From Actinomycetes bacterium (lineage in GTDB: Bacteria > Actinomycetota > Acidimicrobiia > Acidimicrobiales > RAAP-2): 34,056 nucleotides of DNA. Within the stretch, counting starts at the first letter, position 1, and every line of letters starts with the position of its first letter. Where the stretch lies: positions 1 to 34,056 of the forward strand of contig JAJYPY010000011.1 in the NCBI GenBank assembly GCA_021794995.1, read 5' to 3'. This document shows, piece by piece, positions 1 to 3,383 of the stretch. The translations under genes were made by a program, and so were the position numbers. Below the pieces are notes generated by a model. That model was not told where the DNA came from, searched no databases, and was given only the letters and a program-made list of their open reading frames with translations.

Positions 1-1
1 C

Positions 2-70
2 GCGGGCGGCGCGGGTGGCGCGGGCGGCGCGGGTGGCGCGGGCGGCGCGGGTGGCGCGGGTGGCGCGGGT
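2..70 (+). repeat. 9-bp GC-rich tandem repeat coding for Ala-Gly-Gly units
   Basis: About seven and a half tandem copies of GCGGGYGGC, nearly perfect and in frame with the tail of the first partial gene. It starts at the window edge, so its full length is unknown. Confidence 0.85.
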
Positions 71-196
71 CGAGAGCAGGAGCCCGATGTGCCCGTGCCT
101 GGTACAGGCGAGCTCGAGAGTGCAGCGGAAACGTTCGCAGCGGGTGCGTCCGATGCGACGGAGGCTGCGCCAGCGGGCGGAGGTGAGGAGCGATGA
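2..196 (+). CDS. C-terminal tail of an unidentified protein (5' part outside window)
   Basis: The frame that ends in TGA at 194-196 is open to the left edge. It reads eight tandem Ala-Gly-Gly units, then an acidic, Ala/Gly/Glu-rich tail ending in GGGEER. The stop overlaps the rplI start codon (ATGA), so the two genes are translationally coupled. In many bacteria the genes before rplI are rpsF, ssb and rpsR. The gene directly before rplI is expected to be rpsR, but an S18 protein does not normally carry such a tail, and the end lacks the DDDIPF-like tip of SSB. I therefore leave the identity open. The 9-bp DNA repeat behind the Ala-Gly-Gly run could vary in copy number by slippage. Confidence 0.6.
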   Translation, partial: AGGAGGAGGAGGAGGAGGAGGAGREQEPDVPVPGTGELESAAETFAAGASDATEAAPAGGGEER

Positions 197-642
197 AGAT
201 TCTCCTGCGCCACGACGTTCACGGTGTCGGGCGGCGCGGCGACATCGTGGAGGTGGCGGACGGCTACGCGCGGAATTTCCTCGTTCCCGGCGGCCACGGC
301 ATCGCTGCATCGAAGGGAATCGAAGCGCAGGCGCAGTCGATGCGACGCGCGAGGGACCTACGCGAGGCGACCGACCGCCAGGCCGCACAGGCCAAGGCCA
401 CCGTGCTGGCTGGGGCGACGCTGCGGGTGAGTGCCCGGGCCGGCGCGACGGGCCGGCTGTTCGGGTCGGTGGGGGTAGCCGAGGTCGTTGACGCCGTACG
501 CGAGCAGAAGGGCGTCGACCTGGACCGCCGTGCCGTCGAGCTCGCCGAGCCGATCAAAGAGGTCGGCACCTTCGAAGTGCCCGTGCACCTGTTCGGCGAC
601 ATCGCCACCTCGGTCATGGTGGAGGTCGTCCCGGCGACCTAG
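193..642 (+). CDS. rplI: 50S ribosomal protein bL9
   Basis: A 149-residue protein of the usual bL9 length. The N-terminal domain shows the family pattern: a MKILL start, the VGxxGDIVEVADGYARNFL segment that contacts 23S rRNA, then the long charged connecting helix at about residues 45-75. The C-terminal domain carries the GRLFGSVG motif at about 97-104 and ends at VVPAT. bL9 binds 23S rRNA near the L1 stalk and supports reading-frame maintenance. The ATG overlaps the stop of the upstream gene by one base, so it is probably part of the rpsF/ssb/rpsR-type operon. A 245-bp gap with DnaA-box-like sites separates it from dnaB, which may therefore have its own promoter. Confidence 0.97.
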   Translation: MKILLRHDVHGVGRRGDIVEVADGYARNFLVPGGHGIAASKGIEAQAQSMRRARDLREATDRQAAQAKATVLAGATLRVSARAGATGRLFGSVGVAEVVDAVREQKGVDLDRRAVELAEPIKEVGTFEVPVHLFGDIATSVMVEVVPAT

Positions 643-761
643 CACCCAGGTCGCCTGGCCGGCTCCCGTGGCATGGCCGGTTTCCTGGGCCCGATCGAGC
701 ACGCGACCGGGCGTCACACCCAATTGGCACGATGGCATGGTGCCCGCGCGCACTGCGTTCT

Positions 762-836
762 CTGTCCACAGCTCCCCGAGGTTGTCCACAGCCGTGTTCA
801 CAGGGTTGTCCAGGGATCAAAGGGCCGTCATCCACA
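762..836 (+). promoter_or_regulatory. Cluster of DnaA-box-like sites upstream of dnaB
   Basis: Five 9-mers resembling the actinobacterial DnaA box TTGTCCACA lie in the same orientation within 75 bp: CTGTCCACA (762-770), TTGTCCACA (782-790, exact), GTGTTCACA (794-802), TTGTCCAGG (806-814) and TCATCCACA (828-836). The last ends 51 bp before the dnaB start. Known actinobacterial DnaA boxes follow this consensus. A role in DnaA control of dnaB, or as a DnaA-titration site, is inferred. No AT-rich unwinding element or dnaA/dnaN gene is next to it, so I do not call an origin. Confidence 0.55.
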
Positions 837-887
837 CGTTTTGGGGGCTACCGATCCCCAGGCAACTTCGCCCAAGGTAGGTAGGCC

Positions 888-3266
888 ATGGTGCAGGTGC
901 TCGACGACGACCGTCCCCGCCGGATTCGGCCCGATGCCAGCCGTGGCGGCCCGGGTTCCTATGGCGAAGGGGGCCCTCCACAAGGCGTCTCCTCGATCGG
1001 CGCACGTGGTCCCCGGGTACCGCCGCACGATCTGGACGCCGAGGAGTCCCTGCTCGGGGCGATGTTGCTCTCTGGCGACGCCGTCGTCGCTGCCATCGAG
1101 ACCTGTGGCCCGGCGGACTTCTACAAGCCGGCGCACGGGCACATCTTCGCAGCCATCGTGTCGCTCTTCGAAGCCGGTGAGCCGGTCGACGCGGTCACCG
1201 TTGCCGACGAGCTCCGCCGCGCCGGCGTCCTTGATCAGATCGGCGACCCCACCGCGCTCGTGTCGCTCCAGGCGAACACCCCGTCGCTTGCGAACGCCGG
1301 TCACTATGCGCGCATCGTGGAGGAGCACGCGCTCCTCCGCCGGTTGATCGGCGTCGCGGGCGAGCTCGCAGAGCTCGGGTACTCCGTCCCCGACGACGTC
1401 ACAGCTGCAGTCGATGAGGCTGAGCGCATGGTCTTCGACCTCTCGGAACGACGGACCACCGATTCGGTCGAAGCGCTGCGGAACCTCATCGGGCCGAGTC
1501 TCGACCGGATCGAAGAGCTGTCCCACCGCAGCAGCCGCATCACCGGCGTGGCGACCGGCTACAACGAGCTGGACGAGATCCTCGCCGGGCTGCAACCGCA
1601 GAGCCTCACCATCGTGGGCGCGCGTCCCGCGATGGGAAAGGCACTTGCACTCGACACGCCGATCCCCACGCCGCAAGGGTGGACGACGATGGGGTCGCTA
1701 CGCGTGGGTGACGACGTCCTCGACGAGCACGGCTCACCCTGCACGGTGACCTACACGTCGCCGACCTTCGTCGGGCACCGGTGCTACCTCATGCGCTTCG
1801 ACGACGGCAGCACCTTGGTCGCCGATGCCGGCCATCGTTGGCTGGCGTACGACGACGAGGGGTGGACCGCCGATGGGGAGCGGTCGCCACGTCGCGCACG
1901 GATCGTTACCACCGAACAGATGCGGGCGGAGGGAGTGCGGACCCCCGACGGACGGCGACCGAACTGGTATGTCCCGCTTGCCGAGGCGATCGACGGGCCT
2001 GAGATCGACCTTGCGGTCGATCCCTATGTCCTCGGGTGCAGCGCAGCAGCGCTGACGAGTGGAACCCCCACACCTCTCACGGGCGCCGCTCCGTCGGACT
2101 CCGGCCGCTCCGCCGGCGCGCCCGGAGAAATCCCAGCGACCTGCCTTCGCGCGTCCGCCAAGCAGCGCCTCGCCCTGCTCCAGGGCCTCATGGACGTCGC
2201 CGGGGCGGTGACGGACTCGAGCGGCACCGTCGAGCTCCGCTTGGTGAGCCGGCATCTCCTCGAGCAGGCGTGGGAGCTCGTCTGCTCGCTCGGCCACAAG
2301 CCGAACCCGATCCATGCGGCCCGTGTGCGGCGTCGCGACGGCGGAATGGCCCGGGCCTGGCGGTTCTGCTGGACGCCGCGGGATCCGGTGTTCCGGACGA
2401 AGGACGCAGCGGCGCGGCTCGAGGTGGTGAGCAACTCGAGCGAGCGCGGGCGCCATACCCGGCGTGCGATCGTCGCGATCGACGAGGTGCCGAGCGTTCC
2501 CGTGCGCTGCATCGCAGTGAACTCGCCTTCACACTTGTTCCTCGCCGGACGCTGCATGACTCCGACGCACAACACGAGCTTCGCGCTTGGGATCCTCGCC
2601 CATGTGGGTACGGCGCTACGGCGACCGGCGCTCCTCTTCTCGCTCGAGATGGGTCACCTCGAGCTGACCCAGCGTCTGCTTGCATCAGAGGCGCGCGTGG
2701 ATGCCCAGCGGATGCGGACCGGCCATCTTCACGACAGCGACTGGTCCAAGGTCGGTACCGCCGTGAGCAGGCTCAGCGAGTCGACGATCTTCATCGACGA
2801 GAACCCCCACCTCACGGTGATGGACATCCGCGCCCGCGCAAGAAGGCTGAAGAAGAGTGAGGGCGATCTCGGGCTGGTGGTGGTCGACTACCTCCAGCTG
2901 ATGACCGGGCGCGGTCGCGCCGAGAACCGCCAAGTGGAGGTCGCCGAGATCAGCCGTGGGTTGAAAATCCTGGCTCGTGAGCTCGAGTGCCCCGTCGTCG
3001 CGCTCTCCCAGCTGTCACGCGGGCTCGAAGCGCGCCAGGACAAGCGGCCGATGCTCTCTGATCTGCGCGAGTCCGGGTCGTTGGAACAGGACGCCGACGT
3101 GGTGCTGTTCATCTACCGGGAGGAGCTCTACGACCCCGAGACCCCGATCGACCGGCAGGGCCTTGCGGAGATCATCGTGGCCAAGCACCGTAACGGGCCA
3201 ACCGGCTCGGCACACCTTGTCTTCCTCGGCCAGTACGCACGGTTCGACAATCTCCAGCAAGTCTGA
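888..3266 (+). CDS. dnaB: Replicative DNA helicase DnaB, intein-containing precursor
   Basis: A 792-codon frame. Residues 1-251 and 563-792 join into a 481-residue DnaB of normal length. The N-terminal primase-binding domain covers about residues 40-150 (PHDLDAEESLLGAML). The RecA-like motor follows, with a Walker A GARPAMGK/TS split by the intein after Lys251. After the insertion come the SLEM segment, a Walker B region with VVVDYLQLM, the SQLSRG motif, and the arginine-finger/C-terminal region with IVAKHRNGPTG. The enzyme is the hexameric ATP-driven helicase that opens DNA ahead of the replisome. The ATG at 888 follows AAGGTAGG and is the first good start before the conserved domain. Because the intein interrupts the ATP-binding loop, the precursor should be inactive until splicing. 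Confidence 0.96.
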   Translation: MVQVLDDDRPRRIRPDASRGGPGSYGEGGPPQGVSSIGARGPRVPPHDLDAEESLLGAMLLSGDAVVAAIETCGPADFYKPAHGHIFAAIVSLFEAGEPVDAVTVADELRRAGVLDQIGDPTALVSLQANTPSLANAGHYARIVEEHALLRRLIGVAGELAELGYSVPDDVTAAVDEAERMVFDLSERRTTDSVEALRNLIGPSLDRIEELSHRSSRITGVATGYNELDEILAGLQPQSLTIVGARPAMGKALALDTPIPTPQGWTTMGSLRVGDDVLDEHGSPCTVTYTSPTFVGHRCYLMRFDDGSTLVADAGHRWLAYDDEGWTADGERSPRRARIVTTEQMRAEGVRTPDGRRPNWYVPLAEAIDGPEIDLAVDPYVLGCSAAALTSGTPTPLTGAAPSDSGRSAGAPGEIPATCLRASAKQRLALLQGLMDVAGAVTDSSGTVELRLVSRHLLEQAWELVCSLGHKPNPIHAARVRRRDGGMARAWRFCWTPRDPVFRTKDAAARLEVVSNSSERGRHTRRAIVAIDEVPSVPVRCIAVNSPSHLFLAGRCMTPTHNTSFALGILAHVGTALRRPALLFSLEMGHLELTQRLLASEARVDAQRMRTGHLHDSDWSKVGTAVSRLSESTIFIDENPHLTVMDIRARARRLKKSEGDLGLVVVDYLQLMTGRGRAENRQVEVAEISRGLKILARELECPVVALSQLSRGLEARQDKRPMLSDLRESGSLEQDADVVLFIYREELYDPETPIDRQGLAEIIVAKHRNGPTGSAHLVFLGQYARFDNLQQV
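1641..2573 (+). other. Class 3-type intein inserted in the DnaB Walker A motif
   Basis: The 311-codon insertion begins with Ala directly after GARPAMGK and ends with Thr-His-Asn before the +1 Thr. Splicing would restore GARPAMGKTSF. Class 3 inteins lack a nucleophile at position 1 and instead carry a Trp-Cys-Thr triad. All three are present: Trp67 of the intein (block B, DAGHRW), Cys290 (block F, VRCIAV) and Thr309 (block G, PTHN), with terminal His310 and Asn311. The middle region keeps traces of a LAGLIDADG endonuclease: DPYVLGCSAAAL where a Gly-Asp-Gly would be expected, and LLQGLMDVAGAV as the second helix. The first acidic residue is lost and the region is short, so the endonuclease is probably dead. 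Splicing activity is inferred from intact splice residues. Confidence 0.9.
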
Positions 3267-3383
3267 GCCGGCGCTCCCCGCGCGAGCCCCGCCTTCGCCG
3301 CCTTCGCCGTCTACGCTCGGGGGGCAGTGGCCGAGCCGGCTCCGTCCCCCCGCAGCCGATCCCATCAACGGCGAGCGATCGCA

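Follow-up and report, generated by a model that had tools for sequence, protein, structure and literature searches.

The closest described counterpart of the locus reported here is the dnaB region of mycobacteria. According to the accessible text of PMC7738170, DnaA binds upstream of dnaB (the Rv0057 region) in Mycobacterium tuberculosis and M. smegmatis, and both in vitro and in vivo it is one of the five leading DnaA regions there. With DnaA I282T, binding upstream of dnaB is weaker and dnaB is under-expressed (same source), which suggests activation by DnaA. Work cited in the part of PMC8203912 that is accessible likewise points to activation in Caulobacter crescentus, where dnaB belongs to the DnaA regulon and has predicted DnaA boxes upstream. 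A damage-responsive promoter type is also relevant. The PafBC/RecA-NDp consensus is given as tTGTCRgtg-8nt-TannnT in the available portion of PMC5656591, and M. tuberculosis variants include TGTCAC-10N-TA-3N-T in that of PMC8151990. The latter source also describes M. tuberculosis dnaB as mitomycin C-induced in a partly PafBC-dependent manner and links a putative LexA box to the gene, so PafBC is not the sole candidate regulator there.

The rplI-dnaB gap examined here resembles the mycobacterial region in that an actinobacterial dnaB is preceded by DnaA sites outside oriC; its own boxes are co-oriented, phased and contained in a small ORF, while the accessible mycobacterial text gives neither the box layout nor the promoter at dnaB. 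Because DnaA binding upstream of dnaB is already published for mycobacteria, DnaA acting at dnaB is a known kind of control and the leader anatomy is the new part; a cluster outside the origin, which an earlier sequence-only reading said would be notable, is not new in itself. Autoregulation of dnaA, datA and DARS in Escherichia coli likewise involve DnaA boxes outside the origin that affect expression or the state of DnaA, but at other genes and in another layout. Caulobacter differs in being an unrelated lineage, and a leader ORF is absent from the description in the accessible part of PMC8203912. The promoter-like block shares with PafBC/RecA-NDp promoters a TGTCA-type element and, 10 bases after TGTCAC, A-N3-T (PMC5656591 and PMC8151990, as far as accessible). 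It departs from them in that most family dnaB loci have C or G at the start of the -10 hexamer, and in that the promoter seems leaderless, with a small ORF and DnaA boxes downstream. A phased one-way array in a coupled small ORF behind a PafBC-type promoter was not found in the literature searched, most subscription papers lying outside it. Within their accessible text, dnaB was not found in PMC3193534 or in PMC6789036 and PMC8223512, which cover RecA-NDp, and nothing on the dnaB-leader question was found in PMC11804915.

With a probability of roughly 55%, the gap is a composite control leader of dnaB, in which a leaderless promoter of the damage type would be followed by a translated leader that contains the DnaA array and is translationally coupled to dnaB (Table 1). 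The window, meaning the whole 34,056-nucleotide stretch analysed, is contig C5 from end to end in a 2.64 Mb draft assembly of 231 contigs. The contig break falls in the Gly-Ala repeat encoded by the C-terminal part of rpsR (1-90), and this left end repeats the right end of contig C205 (rpsR), on which dnaA sits. Provided that C205 and C5 join, about 22.8 kb would separate box 782 from the start of dnaA; the rplI-dnaA distance is 20 to 25 kb in ten relatives. In dnaB itself, the Walker A motif is directly followed by a large in-frame insert (about 1645-2570) whose ends are intein-like; Pfam DnaB_C is split into two matches, and the Pfam scan gave no match to an intein model in DnaB at E 0.001.

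Table 1. Features of the rplI-dnaB region, in window coordinates
Feature	Position	Strand	Basis or remark
rplI (ribosomal protein L9)	193-642	+	ORF; Pfam L9 N and C domains
CGTCACACC, upstream element of promoter-like block	712-720	+	relatives mostly TGTCACACC; TGTCACA enrichment, register
CACGAT, -10-like hexamer (xAnnnT)	728-733	+	A17/T21 near-invariant in aligned rows
Small ORF, GTG 740 to TAG 878-880, 46 codons	740-880	+	ATG 737 in frame; presumed leaderless
DnaA-box-like CTGTCCACA	762-770	+	9-mer match; genus comparison
DnaA box TTGTCCACA, exact, anchor	782-790	+	at most 1 mismatch in 10/10 genus loci
DnaA-box-like GTGTTCACA	794-802	+	12 bp past the anchor box
DnaA-box-like TTGTCCAGG	806-814	+	another 12 bp beyond GTGTTCACA
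DnaA-box-like TCATCCACA	828-836	+	AATCCCCA at the same place in nine other genus loci
Weak sixth box-like CGATCCCCA	852-860	+	3 mismatches
TTCGCCCAAGGTAGG, small-ORF stop overlapping presumed dnaB ribosome-binding site	867-881	+	mean column identity 0.95, 10-locus genus alignment
dnaB	888-3266	+	ORF and Pfam; large intein-like insert after Walker A

The sequence-only reading had reported one exact and four near DnaA boxes in a single orientation within the gap, at 762-836, and all five 9-mers were found. Their clustering exceeds chance: five same-strand matches with at most two mismatches to TTGTCCACA fall in 75 bp, against a maximum of three in 500 dinucleotide shuffles of the window. Across the 2.64 Mb assembly there are 5 exact copies of TTGTCCACA and 7 of a reversed-pattern control; since the count is not above the control, a lone 9-mer is uninformative and the cluster is what counts. 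Around the remaining four exact copies, at most one additional site (up to two mismatches) lies inside 150 bp.

Loss of the 9-mers in close relatives had been named beforehand as the outcome that would speak against the proposal; the comparison did not show such a loss, although conservation is uneven from box to box. Across 10 same-genus loci, box 762 is present with at most two mismatches in all ten (at most one mismatch in 1/10), box 794 in five and box 806 in six at the two-mismatch level. Box 828 is kept in a single locus, the relatives carrying AATCCCCA, so as a DnaA box it is peculiar to the source genome. Boxes 782-814 form a module, TCCACAG-N4-GTTCACAG-N3-TGTCCAG-N-G, which at up to three mismatches is present in 10 of 13 same-genus genomes, each time as a single copy and at rplI-dnaB; its reversed-pattern control has 0 matches. 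In the other three (58-71% complete) rplI was not matched, and one of them, G077 (L162/L322), has a leader with the promoter-like block, the ORF and a TTTTCCACA box, the module being more diverged.

The pattern extends to the family. A search for rplI in 100 family genomes succeeded in 93 (96 matches), from which 90 loci were taken, omitting G098, G088, G070, G079 and the second matches of G019 and G053. In seven of these no dnaB was found (L027, L033, L036, L046, L104, L106, L111) and two carry it on the opposite strand (L126, L135), leaving 81. Up to 300 bp before dnaB, at no more than one mismatch to TTGTCCACA/TTATCCACA, these loci contain 100 boxes against 6.2 expected from shuffles, 96 of them forward and 4 reverse. 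At least one box occurs in 62 of the 81 and two or more in 24; the loci are related, so such counts are not independent. Box positions peak at -120 to -80 relative to the dnaB start, and spacings between forward sites (at most two mismatches) are most often 11-12, 20-21 and 32 bp, or about one, two and three helical turns.

Whether such a cluster marks a replication origin was considered because the dnaA-dnaN gap of the source genome (L012:17566-17887) has no DnaA box within one mismatch of the usual consensus, so that the boxes at rplI-dnaB are the better ones. The relatives' GC skew nevertheless puts oriC in the dnaA-dnaN gap, and the origin reading, dropped on that basis, is extremely improbable. 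The check, which the sequence-only reading had proposed for the whole genome, was run on 40-kb stretches of 10 relatives: the skew minimum falls within the dnaA-dnaN gap or at most 160 bp from it in six, and 0.6 to 5.5 kb past dnaN in the other four, never at rplI-dnaB, where an origin would have it. For three of those four it comes close to where the stretch ends, and the real minimum could be still farther along. In 400 kb of one relative, G026, where dnaB does not come next after rplI, the minimum is about 6 kb past dnaA and 27 kb from rplI. The origin boxes at dnaA-dnaN may be degenerate in the source genome; box-like sites also occur ahead of dnaA and are common to the genus.

A datA/DARS-like role is another way to read the array. 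The site would then lower or reset free DnaA after the passage of replication, by titration or DnaA conversion, with secondary effects on dnaB. Phased same-strand box arrays suit cooperative ATP-DnaA binding, and a site some 23 kb from dnaA, if C205 and C5 join, would be duplicated soon after initiation. Against this, the boxes keep their position relative to the start of dnaB from genus to genus (peak -120 to -80), good boxes are few, and a conserved DnaA-box palindrome beside parB offers an alternative candidate, which makes this role quite unlikely; the titration site put forward by the sequence-only reading found no specific support in its pure form. The palindrome, AATCCACAACGTCATGCACAGGTTGTGGA with flanks, lies at the parB 3' end (C205:26559-26587, L311), in a gap between what appear to be convergent genes, parB having been recognised by eye; dnaA is about 7 kb away. 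It is present in all 11 genomes scanned, the source and ten relatives, three of which have a second, different match, and in 4 of 198 genomes class-wide at up to three mismatches. It is a candidate DnaA titration or reset site and unlikely to be a promoter.

The boxes are preceded by a conserved block, GTCACA-N10-A-N3-T-N6-[A/G]TG. TGTCACA is the second most enriched 7-mer before dnaB, in 38 of 81 loci against 1.8 expected. When the 39 full-length rows are aligned on TGT[CT]ACA, A stands at position 17 in every row and T at 21 in 38, with T at +29 in 22 and G at +30 in 23. A looser form, NGT[CT]AC[AT] with A17 and T21, is found in 60 of the 81 family loci and missing from 21. Among the 60, [A/G]TG falls exactly at +28 in 40, against 1 to 10 at each of the offsets 22-27 and 29, and nine have no start codon at offsets 27-29. 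The leaderless actinobacterial promoter is typically an xAnnnT hexamer that ends right before the start codon. A scan of 600-960 gave no sigma-70 promoter.

In its elements and spacing this block looks like a PafBC promoter, and it probably works like one. Positions 713-733 carry the TGTCR-type element and the A-N3-T spacing of PafBC/RecA-NDp promoters, with C rather than T before GTCACA (CGTCACA). The first -10 base is not the T of TAnnnT (CACGAT here; almost every family locus listed has C or G), so the full definition of a PafBC promoter is not claimed for dnaB. The source genome's recA does carry the full RecA-NDp consensus, TGTCACAC-N8-TACAGT. A fused PafB-PafC protein is encoded in the same genome (L340:697-3063, G000:C167), with Pfam HTH_PafC, two WYL and two WCX domains; it matches PDB 6sj9 at E 6e-41, the Arthrobacter protein there being likewise fused.

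The block also recurs elsewhere in these genomes. Across 21 genomes, it has 70 matches with C or G as the first -10 base against 5 in the reversed control, and 36 with A or T against 0. Eighteen of 25 distinct matches inspected open an ORF of at least 113 codons. Eight genes behind such blocks were scanned: an HNH protein and an RNase T-type exonuclease in the source genome, an IS200-like transposase and a YgjP-like peptidase in relatives, and four with no Pfam match. The motif appears to be a leaderless promoter class in the order (for example G000:C10:20352, C37:1420, C54:1649 and C61:15110) and possibly marks a PafBC regulon.

Two other identities for the block were weighed. An MtrA box, two GTCACAgcg-like repeats as described in the accessible part of PMC4285127, was considered but put aside: a near-invariant A-N3-T with a start codon at a constant distance fits a promoter, and no well-kept second repeat was seen in the aligned rows. 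An RNA regulatory element, such as a riboswitch or ribosomal-protein leader, could account for sequence conservation that directly precedes a start codon where transcription is likely. Rfam has no match up to E 1 in window 1-3300, however, and the consensus fold of 10 loci is no better than column shuffles (z +0.7), nor is its covariation term, so this identity is very improbable.

The start codon of the block opens a small ORF that runs through the boxes. From a start near +28, the frame is 3 to 62 codons long in 56 loci and at least 18 in all but one. In a scan from 40 bp before the block, all 56 forward boxes found lie after the presumed RNA start, 55 of them within the ORF. Of the 51 loci with the strict block, 41 have the stop between -9 and +4 relative to the dnaB start (44 if +17 is counted), against only 5 and 8 in the other reading frames of the same loci and a mean of 16.3 in 300 trials with shuffled middles (sd 3.0, maximum 24). 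An open frame that ends at the ribosome-binding site of the next gene thus occurs here beyond chance. Genera differ in the start-to-dnaB distance modulo 3, and the stop is displaced accordingly, in most cases to -5, -6 or -7. By genus, the rule holds in 7/9 loci of g1, 7/7 of g7, 9/11 of g9, 6/6 of g15 and 3/3 of g6; in the small genera it holds in 2/2 each for g18 and g21 and 1/1 each for g2, g8 and g13. In g4 and g5 it holds in only 1/4 each, three g5 loci stopping at +17, and the ORF stops early in G064 and G059, from the same genus as the source.

The peptide encoded by the ORF shows no such constraint. In 17 close pairs, differences are spread 94/94/104 over the three codon positions, with 38 synonymous and 172 non-synonymous codons, whereas dnaB, as the control, gives 28/13/190. 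A conserved leader peptide of the attenuator type is ruled out by these counts. Since the peptide is unconserved and stop placement is kept, what is conserved is an open stretch with its end at the ribosome-binding site of dnaB. Between the likely RNA start and the first box, at 738-755, lies a terminator-like stem with a T-rich run behind it (1 found, 0.2 expected); the composite-leader reading leaves it unexplained.

A simpler account is a plain DnaA-controlled dnaB promoter region as in mycobacteria, with the GTCACA block and small ORF incidental. Fifty loci from the phylum (the 30 best PF00772 matches plus 20 picked by hand) contain 46 boxes against 4.2 expected on either strand, with at least one in 18. 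Named loci give forward boxes before dnaB in 20 of 22 from the family, 21 of which are already within the family set, and in 28 of 41 other actinobacterial loci, one titled Acidobacteriota; neither count has a shuffle control. These 63 named loci include the 21 duplicates (L157-L178 except L162), and L231 (5 bp) was dropped. In Bacillota/Armatimonadetes, 0 of 16 loci have a forward box and five have a reverse one. The recurrence of boxes in distant Actinomycetota, together with the looser block plus start codon in just 10 of 108 further loci and the published mycobacterial binding (PMC7738170, accessible text), favours the simpler account. The family block and ORF stop, far above chance and in fixed register to the start codon, argue against it, and it appears somewhat unlikely. 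In six of those 10 loci the ORF stops exactly 7 bases ahead of the dnaB start candidate. One record titled as a Bifidobacterium breve MAG (L194, CAMAQM010000007.1) has a DnaB 60% identical to the one here, with two forward DnaA boxes ahead; its label looks doubtful.

In the composite leader favoured here, transcription would begin at a PafBC (RecA-NDp) damage-type promoter with its elements at 712-733, giving an RNA whose 5' end lies at or beside GTG 740, with no leader. The small ORF would be translated first, its open frame and stop position mattering and its peptide not; as it ends on the dnaB ribosome-binding site, dnaB translation would be coupled to it. DNA damage would raise dnaB transcription through PafBC. 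Past the start point, DnaA would assemble on the co-oriented, helically phased boxes inside the ORF, and bound DnaA would set dnaB output, its likeliest role being that of a downstream roadblock whose braking strength follows the amount of active DnaA. Boxes downstream of the RNA start suggest such a roadblock and favour a brake only slightly, at about even odds. An activating role is possible at lower odds and fits poorly with boxes beyond the start point; an array with no effect on dnaB transcription would be less probable again. The proposal of the sequence-only reading that DnaA may set dnaB expression is thus supported, by conservation here and by mycobacterial binding (PMC7738170, as far as accessible), while its account overlooked the promoter block and the small ORF.

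A sharper form of the composite leader is tentative: a two-input leader in which a PafBC-type damage promoter would produce a leaderless RNA and a phased DnaA array in a content-free ORF would gate elongation. If true, the ORF exists just for translation, coupling dnaB and pushing RNA polymerase through the DnaA array, and helicase supply senses the state of replication initiation and DNA damage at one spot. It would also be a candidate mechanism behind two mycobacterial findings, DnaA bound upstream of dnaB and partly PafBC-dependent dnaB induction. DnaB loading is the committed step in replication initiation and restart, and a leader at which the initiator DnaA and the damage regulator of actinobacteria meet would account for the adjustment of helicase supply to the two of them.
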